From assembly GCF_029871205.1 (NCBI RefSeq), contig NZ_SSOJ01000142.1:1-64000 (forward strand): a stretch of 64,000 nt of DNA. The letters run 5' to 3'. The DNA is from Pseudomonas sp. BN417 (GTDB lineage Bacteria; Pseudomonadota; Gammaproteobacteria; Pseudomonadales; Pseudomonadaceae). Shown here one piece after another: positions 9,320-12,952 of the stretch. Numbering within the stretch: position 1 is the stretch's first letter; the number at the start of each line of letters is the position of its first letter. The position numbers were made by a program, and so were the translations under genes. The notes under the pieces are model-generated. The model searched no databases. It saw only the letters and a program-made list of their open reading frames with translations, and was not told the origin of the DNA.

Positions 9320-9462
9320 GGGGGTGGTCCAATGGGAAACGCCGCCATGATAACCAGTCGGGGCCGCCTTGTCCGGCCCGGCTGGCGCCGCCAGAGGGCG
9401 GTACGTGCGGCGAGGCGCCCAATGCGTCCGCCGCGTCTCGGATTTTCTGAACTGGAGTGGCT

Positions 9463-10809
9463 ATGAGTGAAGTAGAAGTGGTCGGCCCGGAAGCATTGCC
9501 GGAACTGCAGGCGCGGGTCGAGCGCATCCTCGCCGAAGCCCGGCGCCAGGGCGCAAGCGCCTGTGAGGTGGCTGTTTCAGTGGAGCAGGGATTGTCCACC
9601 ACCGTTCGCCAGGGCGAGGTGGAAACAGTCGAATTCAACCGTGACCAGGGGTTCGGCATCACCCTCTACGCCGGGCAGCGCAAGGGCTCGGCCAGCACTT
9701 CGGCGAGCGGCGAAGACGCCATTCGCGAGACAGTGGCGGCGGCCCTCGCCATCGCCAAGCATGCCTCCGAGGACGACTGCGCCGGTCTGGCCGATGCGGC
9801 GCTGATGGCCCGCGACCTGCCGGACCTCGACCTTTACCACCCCTGGTCCATCACCCCCGAGCAGGCCGTGGAGCAGGCGCTGATCTGCGAAACGGCGGCC
9901 TTCGAGGCCGACAAGCGCGTCAGCAAGGCGGACGGCACCACCCTCAACACCCACCAGGGTTGCCGGGTCTATGGCAACAGTCATGGCTTCGTCGGCGGCT
10001 ACGCCAGCACCCGGCACAGCCTGAGCTGCGTGATGATCGCCGAGGCCCAGGGGCAGATGCAGCGGGACTACTGGTATGACGTCAGCCGCATTGGCAGCCA
10101 GCTGGCAGACCCTGTAAGCATCGGCCGGCGCGCCGCCGAACGCACGGCCGCACGCCTGGGTGCCCGGCCGGTACCCACCTGCGAAGTGCCGGTGCTGTTC
10201 GCCGCCGAACTGGCTACAGGCCTGTTCGGCAGCTTCCTTTCGGCCATTTCCGGCGGCAACCTCTACCGCAAGTCATCCTTCCTTGAAGGCGCACTTGGCC
10301 AGCGGCTGTTCCCCGAGTGGCTGTCCATCGACGAGCGGCCGCACATCCCGCGCGCCATGGCCAGCGCCACCTTCGACAACGACGGCCTGGCCACCTATGC
10401 CAAACCGTTCGTGGAGAAGGGCGAGCTGGTGTCCTACATCCTCGGCACCTATTCCGGACGCAAGCTGGGCCTGCCCAGCACCGCCAACGCAGGCGGCGTG
10501 CACAACCTCTTCGTCAGCCACGGCCAGGAAGACCAGGGGGCGCTGCTGCGGCGCATGGGTCGCGGCCTGCTGGTGACCGAGCTGATGGGGCAGGGGCTGA
10601 ACATGGTCACCGGCGACTACTCCCGCGGTGCCGCCGGCTACTGGGTGGAGAATGGCGAGATCCAGTTCCCGGTGCAGGAAGTGACCATCGCCGGCAACCT
10701 CAAGGACATGTTCCGCCAGATACTCGCGGTCGGCAGCGACCTGGAGCTGCGCGGCAACATCCGTACCGGCTCGGTTTTGATCGAGAAGATGACGGTCGCC
10801 GGCAGCTGA
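9463..10809 (+). CDS. pmbA: Metalloprotease subunit PmbA (TldE)
   Basis: This is the second subunit of the TldD/TldE protease. The 448-residue protein shares the two-domain fold but has no HExxxH; at the equivalent place it reads PVLFAAELATGLFG, as expected for the non-zinc partner. The ATG at 9463 is chosen over an in-frame GTG two codons earlier because CTGGAG lies 6 bases upstream. The C-terminal part carries GNLKDMF and the family ending. A strong terminator follows. Confidence 0.95.
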   Translation: MSEVEVVGPEALPELQARVERILAEARRQGASACEVAVSVEQGLSTTVRQGEVETVEFNRDQGFGITLYAGQRKGSASTSASGEDAIRETVAAALAIAKHASEDDCAGLADAALMARDLPDLDLYHPWSITPEQAVEQALICETAAFEADKRVSKADGTTLNTHQGCRVYGNSHGFVGGYASTRHSLSCVMIAEAQGQMQRDYWYDVSRIGSQLADPVSIGRRAAERTAARLGARPVPTCEVPVLFAAELATGLFGSFLSAISGGNLYRKSSFLEGALGQRLFPEWLSIDERPHIPRAMASATFDNDGLATYAKPFVEKGELVSYILGTYSGRKLGLPSTANAGGVHNLFVSHGQEDQGALLRRMGRGLLVTELMGQGLNMVTGDYSRGAAGYWVENGEIQFPVQEVTIAGNLKDMFRQILAVGSDLELRGNIRTGSVLIEKMTVAGS

Positions 10810-10858: not shown

Positions 10859-10963
10859 TTCCGCCGGATGACAGCTGCGAGCCTAGGGCTGGCGGCAGGG
10901 GCTGCCTGATGATGGTGCTGGATACCGCGCTGGCCTGATATCAGGCCCTGGGGCGGCCCGGAA

Positions 10964-10993
10964 TCATTCGCCTTCGTCAAATCTATCGTTGAC
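10964..10993 (-). repeat. Detached copy of the ptsO 3' end (putative att site, distal)
   Basis: On the minus strand these bases read VNDRFDEGE followed by TGA. On the plus strand, 10974-10993 matches 12690-12709 at 17 of 20 positions, including a 13-base exact core (TCGTCAAATCTAT) and then GTTGA. Upstream of this point (above 10994) the frame no longer resembles NPr, so only the last nine codons are shared. The codons for the last residues differ synonymously from those in ptsO (GAA/GAG, GGC/GGA, TGA/TAA), suggesting two genuine, diverged gene ends. Confidence 0.75.
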
Positions 10994-11086
10994 CGCTTCG
11001 GAAGCCGCGGCTTCTCTGAAAAATGCCAGGAAATTGGGGTTTTACGAGATATTTTCCGTGCATGTAGGTAAGTGTTCCTCCTGGGT

Positions 11087-11103
11087 GTGGACGCAATGTG
11101 GAC
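11087..11103 (+). repeat. Paired GTGGAC repeats, left end
   Basis: GTGGAC occurs at 11087-11092 and 11098-11103, exactly 11 bases (one helical turn) apart and about 94 bases inside the left ptsO-end copy. A matching pair with the same spacing lies at the right end. Such paired short repeats resemble arm-type binding sites of tyrosine integrases, but this role is inferred. Confidence 0.5.
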
Positions 11104-11323
11104 ACTCATGACCACCTGGCTTTGCACTCCATCTCAAATCCTTTCACAACGTGAAGCGCTCCCTGGCCGGCCAAGGCCCAGCAATGGCGCATCTCCACGC
11201 CCTGGTTTCATCTCCTGCGGGATTTCACGCAGCTTTCTATGCGAGGCCCGCCGGCGGGAGGGGGATAAGTCCGTTTCTGTCGGAGATTTTCTGGTCGGAG
11301 CGGATTTTCCGAGCGGCCTTCCT

Positions 11324-11376
11324 TGGTGTGTATGGTGTGTAGGCAGAAGTGTTATTGGTGTGTACCATACACACCA
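11324..11376. promoter_or_regulatory. Operator-like array of four 9-base repeats upstream of hicA
   Basis: The 9-mer TGGTGTGTA occurs as two head-to-tail copies (11324-11332, 11333-11341) and again at 11356-11364. An exact inverted copy TACACACCA lies at 11368-11376. The last two form a perfect 9-3-9 palindrome centred at 11366, 25 bases before the hicA start. HicB antitoxins with ribbon-helix-helix domains bind such palindromes to repress hicAB, so this is the probable operator. Confidence 0.7.
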
Positions 11377-11401
11377 TGGACAGGCCGAAGGGAGGGCGGT
11401 G

Positions 11402-11584
11402 ATGCGAAGTAGAGAGGTGATCGAACTGATAGAGGCGGATGGGTGGTACGAAGTAGAGGTGAAGGGTAGCCATCACCAGTTCAAGCACCCGACAAAGAAG
11501 GGGAGGGTCACGGTTCCCCACCCCAAGAGTGATCTACCAGTGGGAACCGTACATAGCATATTGAAACAAGCCGGCCTCAAGTGA
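11402..11584 (+). CDS. hicA: HicA toxin, mRNA interferase (YcfA-like)
   Basis: This 60-residue protein has the double-stranded-RNA-binding-like HicA fold. HicA toxins cleave or block mRNAs during stress. The catalytic histidine is in KGSHHQF (His24), followed by KHP and the conserved VTVPHPKSDLPVGTVHSILKQAGL ending split over residues 36-59. GGAGGG stands 5-10 bases before the ATG. The gene is AT-richer than its chromosomal neighbours. The antitoxin gene follows after 60 bases. Length, motif and partner all agree with a complete, potentially active toxin. Confidence 0.92.
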   Translation: MRSREVIELIEADGWYEVEVKGSHHQFKHPTKKGRVTVPHPKSDLPVGTVHSILKQAGLK

Positions 11585-11644
11585 GGTCGGTGGTTCCACC
11601 AGAATCGGCCAGTTGCCGGTTCAATCCTTTCCTAGGAGTCGAAC

Positions 11645-12049
11645 ATGAAATTTCCAGTCGTATTGCACAAAGACGCTGATTCGGACTACGGGGTAACCGT
11701 GCCCGATGTGCCTGGCTGCTTCTCCGCCGGTACCACCGTTTCGGAAGCGCTGGAAAACGTCCAAGAGGCCCTGGCACTGCATTTCGAGGGGCTGGTCGCT
11801 GATGGAGAAGAGTTGCCTCAGGCGCAAGAAGTGGATTTCCACATGGGGAACTCTGACTTCGCGGGTGGGGTTTGGGCGGTCGTGGATTTCGACGTAACAC
11901 CCTACTTGGGTAAGGCTGTGCGCTTCAATGCCACCTTGCCGGAGAACCTGCTGCATCGCATCGATGAGCGCGTGAAGCGTGACCACCGATACGCCTCCCG
12001 CTCTGGTTTTCTAGCCACTGCGGCGTTGCGAGAACTGGCGGCGGGCTGA
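11645..12049 (+). CDS. hicB: HicB antitoxin
   Basis: This 134-residue antitoxin of HicA has an N-terminal HicB domain (residues 1-60, with YGVTVPDVPGCFSAG and the helix TVSEALENVQEALALH), a partly degraded RNase H-like fold that binds the toxin. The C-terminal segment (about 92-130, AVRFNATLPENLLHRIDE then SGFLATAALREL) looks like a ribbon-helix-helix DNA-binding domain. This arrangement predicts autorepression through the repeat array before hicA. CCTAGGAG lies just upstream of the ATG. A terminator follows 15 bases after the stop. Confidence 0.93.
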   Translation: MKFPVVLHKDADSDYGVTVPDVPGCFSAGTTVSEALENVQEALALHFEGLVADGEELPQAQEVDFHMGNSDFAGGVWAVVDFDVTPYLGKAVRFNATLPENLLHRIDERVKRDHRYASRSGFLATAALRELAAG

Positions 12050-12064
12050 TCCGCCAAATAAAGG

Positions 12065-12090
12065 AAAGGGCGCCTTCTGGCGCCCTTTTG
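12065..12090 (+). terminator. Rho-independent terminator after hicB
   Basis: AAAGGGCGCC and GGCGCCCTTT form a perfect 10-base-pair stem with a TTCT loop, followed by TTG. It closes the hicAB transcription unit. Confidence 0.85.
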
Positions 12091-12151
12091 TGCGAGAGGA
12101 TCCGGGAAACCGCAGCCGGCTACTATTCCAAGGCTTCGTCCTCAATCTCCC

Positions 12152-12643
12152 AAGTGTAGGAAGGTTGCTACCGGGGCACGCTGGTCCGAGGCTATGGCGC
12201 TGCAGCCGGGCTTGGTGAGGGATGGGAGACTGCACTTCGTTCGTACCAAGTCGGCCAGAAACAGAGCCGTGCCGATCTCTGCTGATCTTCAGACCATGCT
12301 CGAGCAGAACCTGCCTTGGCGCTTGTCCTATTCTGCGACCTACAAAGCGTTCGAGCTTGCGATTGCGGACCTGGAGTTGGGATTGCCGAAAGGGCAGCTG
12401 ACCCACGTGCTGCGCCACACCTTTGCCAGTCACTACATGATGAACGGCGGCGATATCCTCACTCTTCAGCGAGTCCTGGGTCATTCAAACCTGACCATGA
12501 CCATGCGCTATGCCCACTTCAGTCCTAGGCACCTGGCTGAAGTGGTCAATCTCAACCCTCTTGCTGAGGGGCGTGGACACTTTGTGGACGTAGTGCCGAA
12601 AAGTGAAAGCAGGGTGGATACAGATGAATTGGCAGAGGCCTAA
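12152..12643 (+). pseudogene. Tyrosine recombinase (phage-type integrase), 5'-truncated
   Basis: The surviving frame encodes roughly the C-terminal 160 residues of a phage-type tyrosine integrase. The box I arginine is in ATGARWSEA (12168-12193), the beta-hairpin lysine in [11 protein letters not shown], and [10 protein letters not shown] with the second arginine is followed by RVLGHSN. YAHFSP provides the tyrosine nucleophile. The first Met in frame (12194) lies after box I and has no ribosome site, and upstream of about 12152 the family similarity stops, so the arm-binding and core-binding domains are missing. All catalytic residues survive, but a functional recombinase is unlikely. The stop codon is 48 bases from the ptsO att core. 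Confidence 0.85.
12573..12589 (+). repeat. Paired GTGGAC repeats, right end
   Basis: GTGGAC occurs at 12573-12578 and 12584-12589, again exactly 11 bases apart, about 102 bases from the right ptsO-end core. The pair overlaps the last codons of the recombinase frame. No further copy on either strand was seen between the two ptsO-end copies. Confidence 0.5.
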
Positions 12644-12679
12644 GCTGGCTGCGGCCTCTAGCGATTCTCAGGGGGAGAT

Positions 12680-12952
12680 TTACTCTCCCTCGTCAAATCT
12701 ATTGTTGATCAGCTCGATCAGGGCATTGAGGGCATCGTCGTCCTGATCGCCTTCGGTGTGCAGGTGGATGGGCGTGCCCTTGCCAGCGGCCAGCATCATC
12801 ACGGCCATGATGCTCTTGCCGTCCACCAGGCTTTCAGGGGATCGCCCCACCCGGATCTGGCAAGGGAAACGCCCGGCGACGCCGACGAATTTCGCCGCTG
12901 CCCGGGCGTGCAGGCCGAGCTTGTTGATGATGGTGATCTCGCAGGCAGGCAT
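12680..12952 (-). CDS. ptsO: NPr, nitrogen-PTS phosphocarrier (HPr-like)
   Basis: This 90-residue HPr homologue passes phosphate from PtsP to EIIA-Ntr (PtsN) in the regulatory nitrogen phosphotransferase system. The phosphoacceptor is His15 in KLGLHARAA, and the regulatory-serine region is DGKSIMAVMMLAA. The gene lies 15 bases after rapZ, closing the rpoN-hpf-ptsN-rapZ-ptsO cluster. Its last eight codons form the core of the att-like repeat, so the present 3' end may have been supplied by the integrated element while keeping the encoded protein intact. Confidence 0.95.
   Translation of the reverse strand: MPACEITIINKLGLHARAAAKFVGVAGRFPCQIRVGRSPESLVDGKSIMAVMMLAAGKGTPIHLHTEGDQDDDALNALIELINNRFDEGE
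12690..12709. repeat. ptsO-proximal att-like core
   Basis: This is the gene-side copy of the 20-base repeat also found at 10974-10993. It falls in the codons for INNRFDE of NPr. The 13 bases TCGTCAAATCTAT are identical in both copies. Confidence 0.7.

Follow-up and report, generated by a model that had tools for sequence, protein, structure and literature searches.

The interval between pmbA and ptsO

The window analysed here is a stretch of 64,000 nt from Pseudomonas sp. BN417 (contig NZ_SSOJ01000142.1), in which the 3' end of ptsO is present twice. The ptsO gene, which encodes NPr, is complete and its protein end is unchanged (12680..12952, minus strand; PF00381, E 1.8e-26). Its own end (12680-12708, minus strand) encodes ELINNRFDEGE-stop, and a detached copy at 10964-10999 (minus strand) encodes EAVNDRFDEGE-stop. 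The two copies form a direct repeat of 32 nt with 81% identity. With three mismatches allowed, the window contains the core TCGTCAAATCTATNGTTGA at two places and 100 dinucleotide shuffles yielded none, so that the repeat is far beyond chance. An earlier note on this DNA had described the two ends and their differing synonymous codons and stop codons, and both are present as it reported; the shared 20-base core is also real, but it matches at 18 positions and not at the 17 counted there. The host flank on the other side consists of pmbA (9457..10809, plus strand; PRK11040 metalloprotease PmbA, E 2e-170), followed by the relic of the end of a host ZIP-family gene (GCLMMVLDTALA-stop; 10900..10938, plus strand), which was recognized by sequence comparison and lies outside the element.

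Two genes with intact frames lie between the copies, namely hicA, a toxin gene (11402..11584, plus strand; PF07927, E 1.7e-24), and hicB, an antitoxin gene (11645..12049, plus strand; PF15919, E 3.7e-44), each matching the full profile. Their arrangement in one operon fits a HicAB type II toxin-antitoxin system. A 17-nt inverted repeat ahead of hicA (11320..11380; TCCTTGGTGTGTATGGT / ACCATACACACCATGGA, 94% complementary) is likely to be the HicB operator. Next to ptsO, a tyrosine recombinase is represented by its C-terminal part (open frame 12194-12643; PF00589, E 8.2e-14), whose catalytic motifs HVLRH, LGH and MRYAHF align with full-length relatives (HxxR, GH and Tyr region). The whole integrase remnant (12164..12643, plus strand) comprises the catalytic domain only: the arm-binding and core-binding domains are missing, and the match starts at residue 211 of the integrase of Pseudomonas sp. 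PIC25, to which the fragment is 81-82% identical. Identity to the integrases of Pseudomonas (para)aeruginosa PA7 and phage PaBSM-2607-JFK (hereafter JFK) is 78-79%. The integrase stop lies 36 bases from the ptsO stop and 46 from the gene-side core, close to it as the earlier note had said, although not at the 48 bases given.

Pairs of GTGGAC, 11 bp apart and in like orientation, were found on both arms of the element, at 11087..11103 (11087/11098) and 12573..12589 (12573/12584), both on the plus strand. The first pair is also present in JFK (2511/2522) and at the far end of PA7. Both arms of JFK and both of PA7 have such pairs, and in PIC25 they recur on the integrase-side arm. The longer TGTGGAC occurs three times in the element, a count reached by one of 500 simulated sequences. 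These pairs are presumed to be integrase arm sites. A search gave no support for the P2 arm-site consensus in the form that we take it to have, TGTGGACA. The GTGGAC pairs and the intact hicA and hicB are additional to what the earlier note had seen between the copies.

Empty site and displaced tail

The GTDB genus of the window comprises 18 genomes including its own, and the ptsO region was compared in the other 17. To these we added 17 ptsO loci from other genera, out of 20 stretches retrieved, picked near the top of a ptsO ranking of 138 and thus not at random. This integrase had no match in any of the 34 loci. The nearest of the same-genus relatives compared, G016 (1322 of 1350 nt identical in pmbA), has an empty site with a pmbA-ptsO gap of 167 bp. 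Between the window and G016, ptsO differs at eight positions in the first 240 nt and at seven in the last 27 nt, all seven being silent or a change of the stop codon. The detached copy, on the other hand, shows no difference from the G016 empty site over 31 nt (GACGAAGGCGAATGATTC onward). Considering both the concentration of changes in the tail of the gene and the 31-nt identity of the detached copy, ptsO acquired a new tail, and its old one was displaced. The claim of the earlier note that the C-terminal codons of NPr came from an element is thereby upheld for the last codons and the stop.

Past the crossover block, a further 7 nt of the far copy in the window resemble the phage (TAGATTT, against CAGGTTC in G016), an extension that the far copies of PA7 and PIC25 lack. 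A plain crossover with a G016-like attB is not expected to leave such a stretch, which counts against the prophage explanation set out below. It could have arisen by repair of a mismatched overlap, from a host tail that had already changed (reading AATAGATTT) or by later conversion.

Complete prophages at ptsO

The integrase fragment was searched against 348 Pseudomonadaceae genomes, at least 115 of which match it at E 1e-30 or better. Among the matches listed, the two best outside the window, in PIC25 and PA7, adjoin ptsO. Both are full-length frames (379 aa in PIC25 and 371 aa in PA7), and flanking copies of the ptsO end accompany them. In PA7 the far tail, EAVNNRFDEGE-stop, lies at 5,220,853, and the prophage measures 29,625 bp between crossover blocks. 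The far end in PIC25 lies some 100 bp away from pmbA on a separate contig. Over 31 nt, the displaced tail there is the same as the ptsO end of G036, an element-free genome of the same genus as PIC25. The far-end pattern (phage arm plus displaced tail) was retrieved from three of the 348 genomes, once each, and these are the window, PA7 and PIC25, all with an integrase of the ptsO clade beside ptsO; no element-free relative with a detached FDEGE copy was found. A control pattern had no hit among the matches listed in the scan of the 348 family genomes. A point against the prophage explanation is that an intact whole prophage was not seen in the window's own species. The proposal that ptsO is an attachment gene of this recombinase family holds for the integrase clade to which both full-length integrases and the window's fragment belong.

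The ptsO island of PA7 is almost certainly the prophage RGP78, since its position, its integrase end and the identity of its integrase to that of a second prophage fit Table 3 of PMC2809737 and section 6 of PMC12369383. In its entry in PMC2809737, RGP78 is phage-related with an integrase at the left end; the passages on it there and in PMC12369383 do not name its attachment gene. RGP78 and the element of the window have in common the ptsO site and the anatomy of the junctions. They differ in that RGP78 is complete (29.6 kb) and still has a fumC-sodM-ZIP cluster outside it, whereas the window holds a remnant.

Phages carrying the ptsO tail in attP

Two phages encode integrases nearly identical to that of PA7, JFK (OQ849765; 99.7%) and phita81A/2 (PQ758394; 98.6%). 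JFK, a sewage phage of the Peduoviridae with a P2-type capsid gene (PF05125), is colinear with the PA7 prophage and 99.2-99.8% identical to it where aligned; in PIC25, the 9.5 kb seen are colinear with JFK as well. Beside int, JFK holds an uncut attP, GAAGCGGTCAACAACAGGTTTGACGAGGGCGAGTGA, and in both phages attP encodes EAVNNRFDEGE-stop. At the PA7 junctions, the gene carries the right arm of JFK and the far end its left arm. The stretch that attP has in common with the PA7 host site is TCAACAAC, and for the inferred PIC25 pair it is TCAACAA, for which reason the crossover is placed there. The attP pattern was present in no viral contig scanned, which also counts against the prophage explanation, although the four best viral integrase contigs stop 3 bp past the int stop.

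The junctions of the window can be read against these records. The pmbA-side junction (10964..10999, minus strand) joins phage arm GAAGCGGTCAAC, as in JFK, PA7 and PIC25, to the displaced host ptsO tail, the crossover block (10986..10992, minus strand) being TCAACGA in the window and TCAACAA elsewhere. The gene-side junction (12680..12708, minus strand) consists of the phage-supplied last codons and stop of ptsO. A possible hairpin spans the stop codon in this phage-supplied tail (12663-12690); it is also present in PA7 and weak in PIC25. Its z-scores are -1.63 in the window, -1.89 in PA7 and -1.73 in PIC25, where the fold is weak; two empty sites gave -0.23 and +1.11. No T-run accompanies the hairpin and none of the values is individually significant, so that it is suggestive only.

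In the phages, hicAB adjoins attP opposite int, in the same order as in the window. HicA of the window is 73% identical to HicA at the corresponding end of JFK and of the Phitrevirus phi3 (NC_030940), and HicB is 86% identical to phage HicB. JFK and phita81A/2 resemble the window in their ptsO-clade integrase, in an attP with the ptsO tail and in hicAB beside attP; they are, however, whole phages of about 30 kb, of which the window keeps roughly 1.6 kb of the ends, at 69-76% nucleotide identity. phi3 shares the genome plan and hicAB with the window, and the gene order of the latter, with attP between int and hicA-hicB, is that of phi3-type phages. The phi3 integrase, in contrast, is only 60% identical and belongs to a tRNA-Met-associated part of the integrase tree, and no ptsO tail was found in phi3.

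Origin of the element in the window

Both ends of such a phage are recognizable in the window. Positions 10964-12090 correspond to the phage end with attP, hicA and hicB at 69% nucleotide identity, and from 12164-12165 onward the window corresponds to int from residue 211, through att into ptsO, at 75-76%. The phage left-end match thus ends at 12090 and the int match begins at 12164-12165, with the deletion junction between them (12091..12163) and about 28 kb of prophage missing, a figure that presumes an ancestor the size of JFK. No P2 capsid gene was detected in the genome of the window by a PF05125 search, which among 14 control genomes matched in E. coli only. Having no P2-type structural genes of its own, the piece is a P2-like derivative rather than a full member. 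Given the empty site, the replaced and displaced tails, the full prophages in two other genera, the phage attP and the presence of both phage ends, we consider it very probable that a P2-like prophage (Peduoviridae, phi3-type, a relative of JFK) inserted in the last codons of ptsO and that 10964-12709 is what a deletion has left of it. The remnant of an integrated element postulated by the earlier note is therefore real, but is better defined as a P2-like prophage.

By this mechanism, the tyrosine integrase would have recombined a block of 7-8 bp (TCAACAA) in the last ptsO codons with the same block in attP, a crossover chemistry deduced from the aligned sites. attP brings a synonymous ending for ptsO (in the phage, NRFDEGE-stop), which leaves NPr intact, and the native tail of the host was moved to the opposite end of the prophage. 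One later deletion of about 28 kb, presumably a single event, would then have removed most phage genes together with the N-terminal part of int. What remains is hicAB together with the far att, and on the gene side the att preceded by the catalytic domain of the integrase. Since int lacks its N-terminal part, the remnant is presumably unable to excise, and hicAB may have been retained through addiction or simple chance.

The element has no more than hicAB and part of an int today, as would be the case if a small genomic island, a satellite or an integrative toxin-antitoxin module had inserted here and had never been a full phage. This is very improbable: hicAB and int occupy opposite genome ends in JFK and phi3, int is cut at residue 211 so that the present element is not self-sufficient, and the carriers of full-length integrases have phage genomes (whole in PA7, over the 9.5 kb seen in PIC25). 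We rejected the small integrative island on these grounds.

Variation in the pmbA-ptsO interval bears on the proposal of a general hot spot, with fumC-sodM and other genes brought in as cargo by related elements. Among 33 measured element-free loci the interval does range from 52 bp to about 4.2 kb: 23 loci have gaps of 52-422 bp and 10 have gaps of 1.9-4.2 kb (in a further one, L015, the contig ends first). The long intervals, nevertheless, hold the fumC/sodM/ZIP cluster in whole or in part, as do 11 of the 34 element-free loci in all (the 10 with long gaps and L015), none of the 34 has an integrase match, and in PA7 the fagA/fumC/orf/sodM/ZIP cluster is bounded by pmbA and the far att, outside the prophage. 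With the cluster outside the element and no integrase at the element-free loci, a general hot spot was rejected as highly improbable, and fumC-sodM does not indicate one as the earlier note had supposed. The window retains only the last codons of the ZIP gene of the cluster, outside the element. The relic ends just as the intact ZIP gene at locus L012 does, matches the PA7 ZIP end (L038) over 35 bp at 97%, and also remains in the empty locus of G016; it is probably the trace of a deleted fumC-sodM-ZIP cluster. Together with the partial losses of the cluster in other loci, it indicates that an old cluster was deleted.

A local duplication of the ptsO end by slippage, or a gene remnant, with no mobile element involved, could give two near copies 1.7 kb apart, yet its probability is close to nil and it is ruled out by the empty site and by a phage record that holds attP, for the outer part of the far copy equals the G016 empty site and its inner part the phage arm of JFK, PA7 and PIC25, the changed copy is that of the gene, and the DNA between the copies matches phage ends.

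Integrase phylogeny

A tree of 150 integrases was built by a quick method from residue 62 to the end. The fragment of the window, PIC25, PA7/JFK and two viral-contig integrases form one clade (SH-aLRT 99). This ptsO clade sits inside a clade of 16 rows (96), the other 13 of which carry no site label, many of their contigs ending just after int; no tRNA was present in the seven loci of this clade with usable downstream DNA, which were scanned whole. Labels denote the nearest tRNA within 1.5 kb and are not proven sites; in the neighbouring clades, they are tRNA-Thr for 14 of 29 rows (98) and tRNA-Met for 16 of 51 (98), the rest being unlabelled. As judged from these sequences, the 3' end of ptsO is supported as the attachment site of the ptsO clade.

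Other protein genes neighbour integrases of the wider clade. Two of them (L152 and L153) lie 242 and 302 bp from the end of an aminotransferase gene and a third (L063) adjoins the start of an enoyl-CoA hydratase gene, with no tRNA found at any of the three. The far ends of these three elements were not found, and the neighbouring genes are not called attachment sites here.

Exchange of integrase parts between prophages

The second prophage of PA7 (L027) adjoins tRNA-Met. Starting some 1.8 kb past the int stop, it is at least 98% identical to the ptsO prophage (L020/L037) in the 6.2 kb compared, but only 57-71% identical in the int-repressor part. According to the relevant section of PMC12369383, RGP66 and RGP78 have 99% identity apart from their integrases, for which the figure is 59%; the 58.7% measured between the integrases of the two PA7 prophages fits this. 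Both are given as not near a tRNA in their entries in PMC2809737; contrary to that statement, a tRNA-Met neighbour of RGP66 is seen in the PA7 genome.

The two prophages of PIC25 (L019 and L028) have the first 180 nt of int in common (174/180) and are about 90-95% identical over most of the 540 nt before it, and then drop to 60% or less at about codon 61 of int. The border of the arm-binding domain is expected near this codon. The pattern is that of an exchange inside int between a ptsO element and a tRNA-Met element. We regard it as an even call whether P2-like Pseudomonas phages change site by swapping the core-binding and catalytic part of int along with attP while the rest of the phage is kept. 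The swap in PIC25, at about codon 61, would then have kept the arm-binding part and moved the phage from tRNA-Met to the ptsO end (with a spare silent copy in attP) or the reverse. The near-identical prophage pairs of PA7 and PIC25, with their unlike integrases and sites, are material on which to learn which part of the integrase sets the target.

ptsO as an attachment gene

The hallmarks of integration into a gene 3' end were all found at ptsO: an empty site in a relative, a split tail at the far end and a rebuilt gene end. SGI1 reportedly integrates into the 3' end of a protein gene, trmE, the end being rebuilt by the element. Elements of this type (PMC8409611) resemble the ptsO element in that the gene end is rebuilt, but belong to another element class and use another gene. 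No paper on ptsO as an integration site was found in the open-access literature searched. The element is of an ordinary kind, and its attachment gene, ptsO, was apparently unnamed before.

The fumC-sodM cluster beside ptsO should not be taken for phage cargo, and the odd synonymous codons at some ptsO ends are explained by the phage-supplied tails. As attP, attB and both junctions are given to the letter, the recombination is directly testable. ptsO, the NPr gene of the nitrogen PTS, emerges as a phage attachment gene in three genera of the Pseudomonadaceae.
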